52,443 bases of DNA from assembly GCA_027624135.1 (NCBI GenBank), contig JAQBXL010000008.1, positions 1-52,443 on the forward strand. Direction: 5' to 3'. The position numbers were made by a program, and so were the translations under genes. Below, piece after piece: positions 4,660-20,291 of this stretch. The notes below the pieces were generated by a model. It searched no databases. It saw nothing but the letters and a program-made list of their open reading frames with translations, and had not been told where the DNA came from. Position 1 is the stretch's first letter, and each line of letters starts with the position of its first letter. Source of the stretch: Chloroflexota bacterium (GTDB lineage Bacteria > Chloroflexota > Dehalococcoidia > Lucifugimonadales > UBA3495).

Positions 4660-6306
4660 CTAGCTGGTCGTAAGGTCCAGGGGCAGTGGCCTTTGGACGC
4701 CCTCTCTGATGGTTTCTTTGGCAGCCCCGATGAACTGGCTGAACAAAGGGTGGGGGCGATTGGGCCGGGATTTGAATTCAGGATGATATTGTGTGCCGAC
4801 CATGAACGGATGGTTTTTGACTTCGCCGGTCTCAACCAGGTTGCCGTCGGGAGAAAGACCGCCGATGACCAGCCCTGAACTTTCCAGGGATTCCCGGTAG
4901 GTATTGTTAAGTTCGAACCGGTGACGGTGACGCTCGGTTATCGTGTCGGCGCCGTAAGCCGCTCTGGTTCGGGTGTTGGATTGCGTGTTGCAGGGATAAT
5001 CCCCCAGCCGCATGGTGCCACCCTTGCTCGAGATATTCTGTTGATCGGGCATAATGTCGACCACTGGATATTCGGTATCTGGAACCAACTCCGAAGAATT
5101 GGCGTTGCTCAACCCCAGCACGTTTCTGGCCCACTCGATGACCATCACTTGCAGACCCAGGCAAAGGCCTAGGTACGGCACCTGATGCTCCCTGGCGTAA
5201 CGGGCAGTTTCGATCATGCCCTCTACACCCCGAGGTCCGAATCCGCCTGGGACCACGATACCGCAAGCATTGGACAGCAGAGCATCCGGCCCGAAGCGCT
5301 CGACATCTTCGGAATGGACCCATTGAATATCAATGTCCCTGTCATGGTCCAGCCCCGCGTGCCGTAGCGCTTCTCGAACCGAGAGATAAGAATCGGGGTA
5401 TTCAACGTACTTTCCGACTAGTGCGATGGACAGACAATCTTTTGGCGACTTCATCCTATCGACCATCGCCGACCATTCCGACATGTCTCCGGATTGGCCG
5501 TTAAGACTGAGAGATTCTACGATGATGTCGCCCAAACCCGCGTCCTCAAGCATCAATGGCACTTCGTATACATTGTCTACGGTCAGCAAGGGAATCACCG
5601 CATTGAGAGGGACGTCACAGAAGGCCGAGATCTTCTTACAGATGTCCTCAGACACCGGAAGGTCGCTTCTGCAGAGAATGGCGTCAGGTTGTATTCCGAT
5701 TGAGCGCAGTTCTTTCACACTGTGTTGGGTTGGTTTGGTTTTCAGTTCTTGGGCTGCCGATATATATGGAAGCAAGGTTAAGTGGATGTAGAAAACGTTG
5801 TCCCGGCCCACGTCGTTCCGCATCTGCCGGATGGCCTCTAAAAAGGGCAGGCCTTCGATGTCGCCGACCGTCCCGCCGACTTCAGCGATGATCACATCGG
5901 CGCCCGATTCGGCGGCCAGTGCGAGCACCCTGTCTTTGATGGCGTTGGTCACGTGGGGCACGGTTTGAATCGTGCCGCCCAGGAAGTCGCCGCGACGTTC
6001 TTTGGCTATAAGGTTGAGGTAGACCTCTCCGGCTGTAAGGTTGGAGGTTCGGGTTAATTCGACGTCGATGAATCTTTCGTAGTGGCCCAGATCCAGATCT
6101 GTCTCCCCACCGTCTTGGGTCACGAAGACCTCGCCGTGCTGATAAGGGGACATGGTTCCAGGATCGACGTTAAGGTAAGGGTCCAGTTTGATGACGGAGA
6201 CGGTGAGGCCTCGGCTTTTCAGGATGCGTCCGATGGATGCGACGCTGATCCCTTTGCCTAGTGAGCTGACAACTCCGCCTGTAACGAAGATAAACTTTGT
6301 CGGCAT
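4660..6306 (-). CDS. pyrG: CTP synthase
   Basis: A 548-residue CTP synthase catalysing ATP-dependent amination of UTP to CTP with glutamine as nitrogen donor, the last step of de novo pyrimidine nucleotide synthesis. The N-terminal synthetase domain (about 1-270) begins with the invariant FVTGGVVSSLGKG P-loop segment. The C-terminal class I glutamine amidotransferase domain (about 290-540) has the oxyanion PGGFG motif, nucleophile C382 in GLCLGLQ, and the H518/E520 pair in QYHPE. Length and motif order match the family. The start has only a weak ribosome-binding site, and a consensus promoter lies about 150 bp upstream. The ORF of 114 codons overlapping its 3' end is a shadow. Confidence 0.98.
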   Translation of the reverse strand: MPTKFIFVTGGVVSSLGKGISVASIGRILKSRGLTVSVIKLDPYLNVDPGTMSPYQHGEVFVTQDGGETDLDLGHYERFIDVELTRTSNLTAGEVYLNLIAKERRGDFLGGTIQTVPHVTNAIKDRVLALAAESGADVIIAEVGGTVGDIEGLPFLEAIRQMRNDVGRDNVFYIHLTLLPYISAAQELKTKPTQHSVKELRSIGIQPDAILCRSDLPVSEDICKKISAFCDVPLNAVIPLLTVDNVYEVPLMLEDAGLGDIIVESLSLNGQSGDMSEWSAMVDRMKSPKDCLSIALVGKYVEYPDSYLSVREALRHAGLDHDRDIDIQWVHSEDVERFGPDALLSNACGIVVPGGFGPRGVEGMIETARYAREHQVPYLGLCLGLQVMVIEWARNVLGLSNANSSELVPDTEYPVVDIMPDQQNISSKGGTMRLGDYPCNTQSNTRTRAAYGADTITERHRHRFELNNTYRESLESSGLVIGGLSPDGNLVETGEVKNHPFMVGTQYHPEFKSRPNRPHPLFSQFIGAAKETIREGVQRPLPLDLTTS

Positions 6307-14011: not shown

Positions 14012-14470
14012 TTAACCGGCTTTCGAATGGTAGGCCTTGATCCCCTCTTCCAGCGCCACTAAGGGCAGTAGGGCGCACTTGATCCGCACCGGGTACCTGC
14101 GCACCACTTGTAGCGCCAGCAAGTCACCCAAACCTTCCGTATCATCGCCGGTCCCGTTGTACATCGAGGCCCGAAATCGCTCCGCGATCGCTGTCAGTTC
14201 ACATAATGACTTGCCCGGTAGCATGTCGGACAACATGGATGTGGCGGCCTGAATTATGGAGCACCCTTCGGAGCGTGCGCTTACGTTGCAGACCTTGCCT
14301 TGGCCGTCTAACTTGATCTGGAGTGCGGCCCGGTCACCGCAGAAAGGATTGAACTCTTCAGCCTCGATATCGGCTTCACTGATAAGAGCACGGTTATGGG
14401 GATGGCGGTAGTGGTCCATGACCAGGTCGCCATAGAGTCCGTCCAAAGGGACTTCGGGCTGTTGAGGCAT
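14012..14470 (-). CDS. SufU/IscU-like Fe-S scaffold paralogue 1
   Basis: A 152-residue SufU-type protein. It keeps all expected zinc/active-site ligands: C44 and D46 in NPFCGDR, C70 in SEGCSII, C132 in RIKCALL. In SufU systems this protein relays persulfide sulfur from SufS to the SufBCD complex. It lies 156 bp downstream of a second SufU and differs from it over most of its length, with an 8-residue N-terminal extension, so it is an old duplicate. Whether it is a sulfur-transfer protein or a scaffold with a different partner is not clear. No start-overlap coupling to the rest of the operon exists. Confidence 0.88.
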   Translation of the reverse strand: MPQQPEVPLDGLYGDLVMDHYRHPHNRALISEADIEAEEFNPFCGDRAALQIKLDGQGKVCNVSARSEGCSIIQAATSMLSDMLPGKSLCELTAIAERFRASMYNGTGDDTEGLGDLLALQVVRRYPVRIKCALLPLVALEEGIKAYHSKAG

Positions 14471-14626: not shown

Positions 14627-15076
14627 CTATTCGGTGGTTATCGCGTCTGCGTCGCCGGTTAGTGCGGCTTTCATCGTGTGCCAGGCCAACACCGCGCACT
14701 TGATGCGGGTGGGGTAGGCGTTAACACCGGAGAGAGTCTCAAGGTCGCCAAGGGTATCGTAATCCAACTCGGCGCCGGGCTCAGTGATCATGTCGTGGAA
14801 GGCGTCGAATATCTCCTGGGCTTTCTCGACGCTCTGGCCTTTGATGCTCTGGGTCATCATGGAAGCCGAGGCCCGGGAGATGGCGCAGCCGCTGCCCTGG
14901 AATCCTACGTCGTCAATCAGCCCGTCAATCACTTTGAGATAGATGGTAACCTGGTCGCCGCAAAGCGGATTGTACCCCTCTGAGGTCTTGTTCGCTTCTT
15001 CAACCTCGCGAAAGTTCCGGGGCTTGCTGTTGTGCTCCAGGAGGATCTCCTGGTACAGGTCGTTGAGCCCTGGCAT
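14627..15076 (-). CDS. sufU: SufU sulfur-transfer/scaffold protein (operonic copy)
   Basis: A 149-residue SufU with the zinc-site residues C39 and D41 (NPLCGDQ), C64 (GSGCAIS) and C127 (RIKCAVL). SufU accepts persulfide from the SufS cysteine desulfurase. Its ATG overlaps the sufS stop as ATGA (15075-15078), so the two are translationally coupled and this copy is the obvious partner of SufS. The 18-20-residue insertion between the second and third cysteine found in SufU but not IscU is consistent with the longer 70-125 segment. Confidence 0.95.
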   Translation of the reverse strand: MPGLNDLYQEILLEHNSKPRNFREVEEANKTSEGYNPLCGDQVTIYLKVIDGLIDDVGFQGSGCAISRASASMMTQSIKGQSVEKAQEIFDAFHDMITEPGAELDYDTLGDLETLSGVNAYPTRIKCAVLAWHTMKAALTGDADAITTE

Positions 15077-16323
15077 CAGCCGAACACCTCAAGTACTCGG
15101 TCGATGCCCTTGACTAGGGCGTCGATGTCCTCTTTGGTGTTGTAAAAAGCCAGAGAGGCCCGGGCGGTGGCGGGGATCTGGAACCGAAGCATCACCGGCT
15201 GGGCGCAGTGGTGGCCGGTACGAATCGCGATGCCCTGTTCGTCCAGGATCGTCCCAATGTCGTGGGGGTGGGCGTTGTCCATCGTGAACGAGAGGATGCC
15301 AGCCTTATGAGGCGCGGTGCCGATCAGTTTTACCCCGGCGATGGAAGTGAGGGCTTGAGTGCCGTACCGGAGTAATTCCTCTTCATGGGCAGTGATCTGA
15401 TCAAAGCCCAGGTTGTTTACGTAGTCCACGGCCGCGCCTAAGGCTATGGCCCCGGCGATGTCGGGAGTTCCAGCTTCGAACTTATAGGGCAAGTCGTTGT
15501 AGATAGTCTTCTCAAATGTGACCGATTTGATCATGTCACCGCCCCCCATGAAGGGTGGCATGGCCTCTAAAAGGTCTGACTTTCCGTAGAGTATCCCGAT
15601 GCCCGTGGGGCCGAACAATTTGTGTCCAGAGAACGCATAGAAATCGCAGTCTAATTCCTGCATGTCGACGGGCATGTGTGGGACGGCCTGGGCGCCGTCT
15701 AGCAACACAGGGGCGCCGTAGGCATGGGCCATGCTGACGATCTGGGCCGCTGGCAGGATGGTGCCAAGGGCATTGGACACGTGGGTGATGGAGACCAGCT
15801 TGGTGCGGGGACTGAGCATCTTCTCATACTCGTCCATCAACAGTTCGCCGGTGTCGTCGATGGGCACTACCCGCAGGTTGGCTCCCTTTTCTTCGCAGAC
15901 AATCTGCCATGGGACAATATTTGAGTGGTGCTCCATGTTGGAGACGATGATGTCGTCGCCAGGGCCCACGTGTTGCCGGGCGTAGGAGTGGGCCACCAGG
16001 TTGATGCCCTCGGTGGTGTTTCTGGTGAAGATGATCTCCCGGTCGTCGCCGGCGTTGATGAACCGCCGTATCTTAGCTCGCGCGCCCTCGTAGCCATCGG
16101 TCGCCTGCTGGCTCAGGGTGTGAACCCCGCGATGCACGTTGGCGTTGGTCGTGGTGTAGTAGCGCACGATGGCGTCGATGACCGATTGGGGTTTCTGGGA
16201 CGTGGCTCCGTTGTCCAGATAGACCAGGGGATGGCCGTTCACCTGCTGCTTCAAGATCGGGAAATCGTCGCGGACCTTCTCAACGTCGAATGCGGCAGCG
16301 GCAGTGCGGTCTCCGGTGGTCAT
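15076..16323 (-). CDS. sufS: Cysteine desulfurase SufS
   Basis: A 415-residue class V aminotransferase of the group II cysteine desulfurases. It removes sulfur from L-cysteine to form a persulfide. The PLP lysine is K235 in FSGHKLFGPTG, and the persulfide-forming cysteine is C373 in RTGHHCAQPVM. GAQAVPHMPVD carries the PLP-ring aspartate neighbourhood. It lies between sufD and sufU, with ATGA overlaps on both sides, indicating stoichiometric production of the Fe-S assembly complex. Confidence 0.97.
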   Translation of the reverse strand: MTTGDRTAAAAFDVEKVRDDFPILKQQVNGHPLVYLDNGATSQKPQSVIDAIVRYYTTTNANVHRGVHTLSQQATDGYEGARAKIRRFINAGDDREIIFTRNTTEGINLVAHSYARQHVGPGDDIIVSNMEHHSNIVPWQIVCEEKGANLRVVPIDDTGELLMDEYEKMLSPRTKLVSITHVSNALGTILPAAQIVSMAHAYGAPVLLDGAQAVPHMPVDMQELDCDFYAFSGHKLFGPTGIGILYGKSDLLEAMPPFMGGGDMIKSVTFEKTIYNDLPYKFEAGTPDIAGAIALGAAVDYVNNLGFDQITAHEEELLRYGTQALTSIAGVKLIGTAPHKAGILSFTMDNAHPHDIGTILDEQGIAIRTGHHCAQPVMLRFQIPATARASLAFYNTKEDIDALVKGIDRVLEVFG

Positions 16324-17687
16324 CGGGTTATCCCGAAGGGCAGGCTTTTGTCGGGGATGGCTGCGCTGAAAAGGGTGTCCAGGTATTCCCTCAGAGGCTC
16401 AGGCTTAACGGTGGAGATGATCTCGCCGGCGAAGGCGTGAATCAGCATCCTGCTGGCGGCGTCCAGATCTAGGCCCCGGCTGCGCAGGTAGAACAGAGTG
16501 TCGGCGTCGATATGGCCGGCGGTTGCGCCGTGGCTGCACTTCACGTCGTCAGCGTAGATCATGAGGCTGGGCTTGGAGTTGACCTCTGCTGAATGGGAGA
16601 GTATCAAGTTCTTGTCGGTCTGCTGGGCGTCGCTCTTTTGAGCGTCCCGGCGGACCATGACTTCGCCGCCAAACACCGCACGCGACTTGCCGTCCAGTAT
16701 TCCTTTGTAGTTCAGCCGGCTGGTGCAGTTGGGCTGGGCGTGATCGATGCTGATCAGGTTGTCTATGTGCTGATTGTCGGTGGTGAGATATAGGCCGTTA
16801 AGCGAGCAATAGGCGCCTGAGGCATCCAACAGGACTTCAAAGTCGTTCCGGGCCAAGGCCGTGCCCAAGGCGAATGACGCAGAGCTGAAACTGCTGTCTT
16901 TTTCCTGGTTGACCCGGCTGGTGCCGACGTGGAACGCCTTTGCGCCGTCCAGAAGCAGCCGGTAGTGATCGACCTTTGCTCCTTCGCCAACTGAAATCTC
17001 AGTGACGGCATTGGTGAAGTAAACTTCGTCTTGAGGACCGGTATAGCTCTCCACCACTGTGACGTCGCTGTTGCGTCCGGCAACCACCAGGGTCCTTGGG
17101 TGGGTCACCTTCGGCGCGCTGTCGATGGCCGTTTCGGTTGTGACATATGAAAGGTGTATGACCACCTTTTCTGAATGTCCATCGGCAACGTGCACAGAGG
17201 CGCCGTCGTGGAGAAAAGCGGTGTTTAATGCGACGAATCCATCATCATCATCCAGGGGCGCATAGTTTCCGATGCGGGCTTCGAGGTCGAAACTGCCATC
17301 GGCAACGGTGGTAGCCAAGCTGTCGGCTCTAACTCCGTTGGATCCATTGGCAGGTGAAGAAAGCCCGGAATGCAAACGGCCATCGACGAAAACCAAACGG
17401 TAAACCGCAGGTCCATCTAGTTGGTATTCAGGCGCCAAAGCCTTTGATGCATTGACTGGCGCCGCTCCGGACGCCAACCCAAAGTCAATCTTGGCTATCG
17501 GCCCGACGTTGCTGTACTTCCAACGTTCGTTGCCCCGCCGGGCGGTTGGAAAGCCGGTCTCGCTGAATCTCGACCAGGCGTTGTCCCGGATGGTTTTAAG
17601 CCAAGGAGGAGCGCCAGCGCCGGGTCCCTGGCTCAAGGCCTGGAAGTCGGCAAAGTAGTGGGCGTATTTGGCAGGTGCTAGGGTCAT
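16320..17687 (-). CDS. sufD: Fe-S cluster assembly protein SufD
   Basis: A 455-residue SufD, the right-handed beta-helix partner of SufB in the SufBC2D scaffold. The conserved C-terminal SufBD signature is present: SHSAEVNSKPSLMIYADDVKCSHGATAGHID, with the HGAT motif and metal-binding-type histidines, followed by LFYLRSRGL. The N-terminal RRGNERWKYSN segment is typical of SufD. It overlaps sufS by ATGA and follows sufC by 24 bp. Confidence 0.95.
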   Translation of the reverse strand: MTLAPAKYAHYFADFQALSQGPGAGAPPWLKTIRDNAWSRFSETGFPTARRGNERWKYSNVGPIAKIDFGLASGAAPVNASKALAPEYQLDGPAVYRLVFVDGRLHSGLSSPANGSNGVRADSLATTVADGSFDLEARIGNYAPLDDDDGFVALNTAFLHDGASVHVADGHSEKVVIHLSYVTTETAIDSAPKVTHPRTLVVAGRNSDVTVVESYTGPQDEVYFTNAVTEISVGEGAKVDHYRLLLDGAKAFHVGTSRVNQEKDSSFSSASFALGTALARNDFEVLLDASGAYCSLNGLYLTTDNQHIDNLISIDHAQPNCTSRLNYKGILDGKSRAVFGGEVMVRRDAQKSDAQQTDKNLILSHSAEVNSKPSLMIYADDVKCSHGATAGHIDADTLFYLRSRGLDLDAASRMLIHAFAGEIISTVKPEPLREYLDTLFSAAIPDKSLPFGITR

Positions 17688-17711: not shown

Positions 17712-18500
17712 CTAAACGCCCGCATCGACGGTGTCTTTGATCCAGTCGTAGCCCTTCTCCTCCAGCTCCTGAGCCAGTTCAGGGCCGCCAGATCGTACGA
17801 TCCGTCCGTCGAACAGCACGTGGACGTGATTTGGGGTGATGTAGTCCAATATTCGCTGATAGTGAGTCACCAGGATGATAGCGTTCTCAGGAGAACGCAG
17901 GTTGTTGACCCCTTCGGATACGATGCGTAACGCATCGATGTCCAAGCCAGAGTCTGTCTCATCCAGCAGGGCCAGTTTGGGTTGAAGCACAGCCATCTGG
18001 AGCACTTCGTTCCGTTTCTTCTCGCCGCCGGAAAAACCTTCGTTCACGGCCCTCTTGATCAGATCAGGGTCGATCTGGACCTCGACGATCTTGGCCTTGA
18101 GCATCTGGTCGAACTCACGGGCGCTCATCTCCTCTTCGCCGTTGTGGATCCGTCGGGCGTCGACTCCAGCCTTGAGGAATTGCCAGGCCCGAACCCCGGG
18201 AAGCTCTAGGGGGTATTGGAAGGCCAGGAACAGGCCCATGCGAGCCCTGATCTCCGGTTCCAGTTCCAACAGGCTCACGCCTTGGAACAGCACTTCGCCT
18301 CCCGTGACTGTGTAGTCGGGGCGGCCAGCCAGTACATTGGCCAGGGTGCTCTTGCCGGAACCGTTGGGACCCATGATCGCGTGGACTTCACCGGCGAAGA
18401 CGTCCAGGTCGATACCCTTTAGAATCTCCAGATCGCCAGCCGAGGCGGTCAGTCCTTTGATCGACAGCATGGGAGTCGCGTTCTTTTCAGAAGCTGGCAT
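17712..18500 (-). CDS. sufC: Fe-S assembly ATPase SufC
   Basis: A 262-residue ABC-type ATPase that drives conformational change in SufBCD. Walker A is GPNGSGKS (44-51), the signature is FSGGEKKRNE, and Walker B ends in LALLDETDSGLD, with the switch His in VTHYQRILDY. The SufC-specific QYPLELPGV motif in the Q-loop region is present. The start ATG directly follows the sufB stop codon (TAG-ATG with no gap). An internal start at residue 11 is possible. Confidence 0.97.
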   Translation of the reverse strand: MPASEKNATPMLSIKGLTASAGDLEILKGIDLDVFAGEVHAIMGPNGSGKSTLANVLAGRPDYTVTGGEVLFQGVSLLELEPEIRARMGLFLAFQYPLELPGVRAWQFLKAGVDARRIHNGEEEMSAREFDQMLKAKIVEVQIDPDLIKRAVNEGFSGGEKKRNEVLQMAVLQPKLALLDETDSGLDIDALRIVSEGVNNLRSPENAIILVTHYQRILDYITPNHVHVLFDGRIVRSGGPELAQELEEKGYDWIKDTVDAGV

Positions 18501-19961
<1,461 letters not shown>

Positions 19962-20037
19962 TTGCTCCTAGTTCTAAGTCGGGGTTGGGGTCTAAATCTG
20001 AGGCTAAATTGGCCTGATCCAAGTCAAGCCGGTCGAT

Positions 20038-20066
20038 AATTTAACATTGTCGACCACTTTGGTCAA
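20038..20066 (-). promoter_or_regulatory. Promoter of the suf operon
   Basis: On the minus strand TTGACC (20061-20066) and TAAATT (20038-20043) are separated by 17 bp, which would start transcription near 20031, about 70 nt before sufB. The hexamers are near consensus. The inverted repeat at 20046-20070 covers the -35 and the spacer. Confidence 0.7.
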
Positions 20067-20070
20067 CAAT
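20046..20070. promoter_or_regulatory. IscR type-1-like operator over the suf promoter
   Basis: A 25-bp interrupted palindrome: ATTGTCGACC, then ACTTT, then GGTCAACAAT, with a single mismatch between arms. Length, 5-bp centre and the GAC/GTC core match the layout of the E. coli IscR type-1 motif (ATAS-YYGACT-RWWWY-AGTC-RRSTAT, from memory). It overlaps the -35 and spacer of the suf promoter, the expected position for repression by a [2Fe-2S]-bound Rrf2 regulator. A further right-arm-like half-site, GGTCGATAAT, stands at 20031-20040, exactly 30 bp away. No Rrf2/IscR gene is in the window. Confidence 0.65.
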
Positions 20071-20291
20071 TATGCTACCATTCGGTTTTGAGGGTGTCAA
20101 CGAGTTTCGTAATTGACTGTGGACATTACTATTCGAGAGACGGTCGAAAGACGGATTTGCCGCTTAGAGAGGAAGTTCATCGACGGCCGGTGAGCGTGGC
20201 TTTCGAGTAAGATTGACCGGTAAGAATGACCGGGACCAGCAGATCGGAATTTGGACAATGGGTGCACATCTGTCTCGAATTCCGGTATCGC

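Follow-up and report, generated by a model that had tools for sequence, protein, structure and literature searches.

The window, that is, the whole stretch of 52,443 nucleotides analysed here, carries a suf operon whose genes sufB, sufC, sufD, sufS and sufU are followed by a gene for a second SufU-like protein, likely the last of the operon (Table 1). Between this operon, which lies on the minus strand, and a divergent TatD-like gene there is a 25-bp palindrome, ATTGTCGACC-N5-GGTCAACAAT, with its left arm at 20046-20055, its right arm at 20061-20070, the gap ACTTT, and nine of the ten pairs matching. An earlier note on this DNA had described a 25-bp inverted repeat upstream of sufBCDSU, and both the repeat and the naming of the minus-strand genes are correct.

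Table 1. Features of the suf locus, in window coordinates.
Feature	Position	Strand	Basis or remark
Second SufU-like protein	14012..14470	-	TIGR01994, score below that of sufU
sufU	14627..15076	-	TIGR01994
sufS, cysteine desulfurase	15076..16323	-	annotation by sequence
sufD	16320..17687	-	annotation by sequence
sufC, ATPase	17712..18500	-	annotation by sequence
sufB	18501..19958	-	ATG start at 19958; PRK11814, TIGR01980
Extra half-site GGTCGATAAT	20031..20040	+	exactly 30 bp from the matching arm
P2, possible -10, TAAATT	20038..20043	-	in most congeners, absent from the wider family
Operator palindrome, IscR type-1-like, 25 bp	20046..20070	.	20/25 to E. coli consensus, and conservation
P2, possible -35, TTGACC	20061..20066	-	motif read; within the operator
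P1 (main suf promoter), -10, TAGCAT, TG-extended	20072..20077	-	operator starts 1 bp downstream
P1, -35, TTGACA	20095..20100	-	near-fixed distance to the operator in the family

We do not accept the inverted repeat by itself as evidence, because a bare repeat of this kind is ordinary: counting those with 10-bp arms, a 5-bp gap and nine or more matching pairs, the window contains nine. A type-1 operator is defined here as a 25-bp palindrome fitting ATASYYGACTRWWWYAGTCRRSTAT, with the E. coli consensus taken from PMC6599224. By this measure no site in the window matches better than 20046-20070, which agrees at 20 of 25 positions as compared with 18 for the runner-up, while the relatives' sites that were compared agree at 20-23 of 25. 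The P. aeruginosa IscR site B, ATAGTTGACCTAATTACTCGGATAA, which is a validated precedent with a similar site (PMC6599224), scores 20/25 by the identical count. None of 100 shuffles gave the operator sequence within three mismatches. The IscR type-1 layout that had been proposed for the palindrome is thus borne out, in score and in register.

Conservation upstream of suf, on which the earlier proposal had been staked, is found throughout the family and in much of the order. The operator precedes sufB in all 29 readable (aligned) genomes of the genus and family, where the congener sites are related sequences rather than independent draws, and its columns in these 29 suf upstream regions hold a mean of 1.5 bits of information, as compared with 0.2 downstream. 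Because it is conserved in relatives, the reality of the palindrome is certain. It is a real element and, judged by that conservation, a functional one.

Two promoters can be read upstream of sufB. P1, TTGACA-17-TAGCAT (20100 to 20072, minus strand), scores 10/12, and P2, TTGACC-17-TAAATT (20066 to 20038), scores 9/12. Across the 29 aligned regions a TTGACA box, a TAgcaT box and the operator follow one another in constant order and at near-fixed spacing. Since P1 is the conserved and better promoter, we place the operator at about -5 to +20 relative to it. P2 was the promoter originally reported; it exists, but it is secondary and largely restricted to the genus, and the conserved P1 had been missed. 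The conservation of TTGACC is no evidence for P2, because TTGACC forms part of the operator. The half-site lies exactly where it had been placed, but it is not conserved beyond one other congener (G009) and, in part, G001. We therefore reject it as a second operator, and it is probably non-functional.

A pattern search of 60 relatives, allowing at most two mismatches, gave about 73 sites in 45 genomes, and the reversed control pattern gave one match in the same genomes. All but two of these sites (G037:C3 and G029:C113) precede suf, rrf2 or a DUF59-Mrp operon, by which we mean a DUF59 gene (PF01883) followed by a gene for an Mrp/ApbC-type NTPase (PF10609). A further site of this sort in the window's own genome lies before DUF59-Mrp, at C14:48796 (L033). 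Scanning 84,980 species genomes, which overlap with the 60 relatives so that the two counts are not independent, for exact matches gave 65 sites, 46 of them in Chloroflexota (SAR202/Dehalococcoidia). Fully 45 of these 46 stand before Fe-S genes: 36 before sufB (one of which, L164, lies on a cut locus and was assigned from the corresponding contig of G003), five before DUF59-Mrp and four before rrf2. When one mismatch is allowed, a scan of the class finds matches in only 11 of 294 genomes, and the exact motif is therefore centred on the order.

The remaining exact match in Chloroflexota (L161:6948-6972) comes from a groundwater MAG, where a perfect operator immediately precedes a lipoprotein-like gene, a possible extra member of the regulon. 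The 19 exact matches outside Chloroflexota are mostly intragenic or before unrelated genes and look like chance, with the exception of two Polaromonas operons and one site in Fusobacterium naviforme. In the two Polaromonas genomes, which are far from Chloroflexota, the exact palindrome lies upstream of a sufB operon (L170:2275-2299 and L211:2273-2297), whose first gene in L170 is iscA-like. In F. naviforme ATCC 25832 the exact palindrome precedes an Rrf2-like gene by 11 bp (L187:2615-2639).

The operator is placed differently at its three kinds of promoter. At DUF59-Mrp the palindrome itself provides TTGACC as the -35 and covers both the -35 and the spacer; TATAAT or something close to it follows, usually 17-18 bp downstream. 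At rrf2, in several congeners, the palindrome lies directly against the upstream edge of a TTGGAT-17-TATAAT promoter; the operator before rrf2 is degenerate in G002 and G007, and some relatives have none there. That the palindrome takes three different promoter positions points to an operator acting as DNA and not to an RNA element. With its 5-nt loop, the inverted repeat could fold as a hairpin, and so might form a leader hairpin or attenuator of the suf mRNA. At DUF59-Mrp and rrf2, however, the palindrome lies at or upstream of the -35 and would not be transcribed, the predicted suf start site falls within the palindrome, and no terminator-like site was found. The promoter positions, together with the lack of a terminator-like site, lead us to reject the hairpin, which we regard as scarcely credible.

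The earlier note looked to an Rrf2/IscR gene with three conserved cysteines elsewhere in the genome. No Rrf2 gene (PF02082) was found in the window's assembly, which is 87% complete and in 213 contigs, but matches above the cut-off occur in nine of 11 congeners, where the three cysteines are conserved, and in 51 of the 60 relatives, nearly always as one full-length gene. The rrf2 neighbourhood of G009 aligns with contig C2 of the window's genome, and this contig stops 225 bp beyond the end of the alignment, with about 0.5 kb still to go to the expected position of rrf2; the other flank of this neighbourhood was not found in the assembly. In G008, a congener that also has no Rrf2 match, a contig stops immediately short of rrf2, on the opposite side. 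Because contigs end short of rrf2 in both genomes, an assembly gap is the likely reason for its absence from the window's assembly.

The location of rrf2 varies. Among congeners it lies between a gene for a MoeB/E1-like adenylyltransferase and a thioesterase gene (L083:3570-4415 and 5254-5679), a neighbourhood kept genus-wide. In several order-level relatives it is inside the suf operon, in the order sufB-C-D-U-rrf2-S-U2, and the pair of SufU and second SufU flanks it there. In G254, from another order of the class, a site with one mismatch lies just upstream of an Rrf2 gene (L227:1850-1874), which suggests that autoregulation predates the order to which the window's genome belongs.

At the order level, the four genomes without Rrf2 (G022, G051, G052 and G058) have suf upstream regions with no clear operator, and the operator is kept, in some cases drifted, in 16 of the 18 other genomes compared. 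The joint absence of operator and Rrf2 has p = 0.017, or 0.004 when we leave out G059, a genome 81% complete with the site present and no full Rrf2. Two genomes, G043 and G056, have Rrf2 and a weak or absent operator at suf. In G043, whose rrf2 is inside the suf operon, a perfect palindrome with an altered core, ATTTATGAG-N7-CTCATAAAT, replaces the usual operator before sufB (L093), and co-evolution of site and regulator is possible.

These observations bear on whether the operator might serve another Fe-S or iron regulator, such as a SufR-type ArsR/DeoR protein, Fur, DtxR or a different HTH protein, with the type-1 match being coincidental. The window's own assembly, with no Rrf2 match, would be compatible with such a regulator. 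Against it, the site fits the IscR type-1 register, it is also found before rrf2, in several congeners as well as in one genome from a different order, and it tends to vanish together with rrf2. SufR in particular is rejected, as TIGR02702 is above its cut-off in none of the 60 genomes and gives no match whatever in the genus. We consider another regulator very unlikely.

We conclude, with a probability of roughly 0.88, that an Rrf2-type Fe-S regulator controls suf through the predicted site at 20046-20070. Such Fe-S-sensing control had been proposed from the palindrome, and it is well supported because the operator is conserved before suf, rrf2 and DUF59-Mrp, because three-cysteine Rrf2 proteins are near-universal in relatives, and because operator and Rrf2 are absent together. 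In the mechanism we propose, a homodimer of the cluster-bound Rrf2 protein would bind the 25-bp site and block RNA polymerase, the site covering -10/+1 at the suf promoter and the -35 and spacer at the DUF59-Mrp promoter. If Fe-S clusters ran short or were damaged, the protein in its cluster-free form would release the DNA, and suf and DUF59-Mrp would be induced. The E. coli IscR carries a [2Fe-2S] cluster, and its holo form is needed at type-1 sites. By analogy with known systems, repression by the holo form is probable here also. The output at rrf2 may differ, because the site there is just upstream of the -35.

That last position, abutting the upstream edge of the -35, is one that could activate, and apo-IscR does activate the E. 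coli suf promoter. The regulator might likewise switch suf on from an activator site. Yet the overlap with -10/+1 at suf (P1) and with the -35 and spacer at DUF59-Mrp are repressor positions, and the M. xanthus RisR, a similar regulator, works as a repressor from overlapping sites (PMC9973013), so that we find activation improbable and prefer repression.

The congener protein belongs to the Rrf2 family, scoring 119.4 bits with PF02082 (cut-off 30) and 115 with TIGR00738 (cut-off 73.3). It falls short of the IscR equivalogs, with 88.8 as compared with 207.6 bits for TIGR02010 and 83.8 as compared with 275 for PRK10857, and also of the NsrR family PRK11014 (35, cut-off 182 bits). Because it passes the superfamily cut-off while failing those of IscR and NsrR, the regulator is best described, from its sequence, as an IscR-like Rrf2 protein of its own subgroup and not as a canonical IscR. 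Its closest solved structure by sequence is the T. potens BadM/Rrf2 regulator 4cic (E = 1.5e-26). The three cluster cysteines are present in 50 of 50 Rrf2 sequences, with the spacing C-X6-C-X5-C as compared with X5-X5 in E. coli IscR. The equivalent of His107, the fourth ligand in E. coli IscR (PMC6599224, PMC10510648), is found in none of the 50, and Q, R, K or M stands there instead. Asp8 and Arg12 are present in all 49 readable sequences, counted with a search pattern that does not presuppose either residue and with the NsrR reference sequence confirmed. Arg59 is retained in 48 of 50; at position 43 Asp predominates, and at position 38 Pro.

The type-1-like operator, the three cysteines and the IscR-like DNA-binding domain would all suit a canonical [2Fe-2S] IscR. 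The missing His107 in 50/50, the X6-X5 spacing and the equivalog score (88.8 against 207.6) all speak against one, and we think it unlikely. The label 'IscR' thus has to be qualified. The residues of NsrR-type cluster ligation, namely Asp8, Arg12 and three Cys, are present, as read from sequence only. This set, together with the lack of His107, suggests NsrR-like rather than [2Fe-2S] ligation, and by analogy we give an even chance to a [4Fe-4S] cluster in which Asp8 takes part. Slightly more tentative still is the combined proposal of a distinct SAR202 clade of Rrf2 proteins, which would pair an IscR type-1-like operator with an NsrR-like, three-Cys/Asp8 [4Fe-4S] sensor and so separate specificity from chemistry. 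If this is true, the signal for suf would be the damage that NO or oxygen does to a relatively stable [4Fe-4S] cluster, and not [2Fe-2S] supply.

For SAR202, a marine lineage not yet in culture, we found no description of Rrf2/IscR control in the open-licence literature searched. Here a small Fe-S regulon is defined by sequence alone, comprising suf, DUF59-Mrp and, in congeners, rrf2, and the operator links the DUF59-Mrp pair to Fe-S supply. The regulon is a further instance of Rrf2 proteins being recruited to Fe-S operons, as has happened repeatedly (PMC9973013), and with it one can test whether a type-1-like site is readable by an Asp8-type [4Fe-4S] protein.

Compared with known systems, the SAR202 switch shares with the IscR of E. 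coli and P. aeruginosa the 25-bp palindrome with a GAC-N7-GTC core, AT ends and promoter overlap (PMC6599224), as well as a three-Cys Rrf2 protein with Arg59 in control of Fe-S assembly genes. It differs in having T/A for A/T at operator positions 3 and 23 and often C for T at position 10; in the protein, by the lack of His107, the X6-X5 spacing, the mostly Asp position 43 and the Pro at position 38; and in serving one SUF operon and DUF59-Mrp rather than isc. The M. xanthus RisR is likewise a suf-associated Rrf2 protein, with a probable [4Fe-4S] cluster, that binds a palindrome with the GAC-N7-GTC core over promoter hexamers and represses, a second validated precedent for such a site, but it governs both isc and suf and its cysteines (C92, C102 and C108) are spaced differently (PMC9973013). 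The Asp8 of each subunit of S. coelicolor NsrR pairs with Arg12 and is a ligand of the [4Fe-4S] cluster in the partner subunit (PMC5411485, PDB 5n07); the SAR202 proteins share Asp8, Arg12, the three cysteines and the absence of His107, whereas NsrR senses NO, has other target genes and is more distant in sequence (E = 8.8e-10). The Thermincola potens IscR (PDB 4cic), although nearest by sequence among solved relatives, has no Asp at position 8 of the aligned chain. RirA is an Rrf2 protein with three cysteines and Asn8; exchanging this residue for Asp (N8D) gives it a more stable cluster resembling that of NsrR (PMC10510648), and the Asp8 of the SAR202 proteins is of functional interest for this reason. 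Related switches are therefore known elsewhere; this one, as far as the residues indicate, combines a DNA site resembling those of IscR and a regulator with cluster residues that look more NsrR-like.
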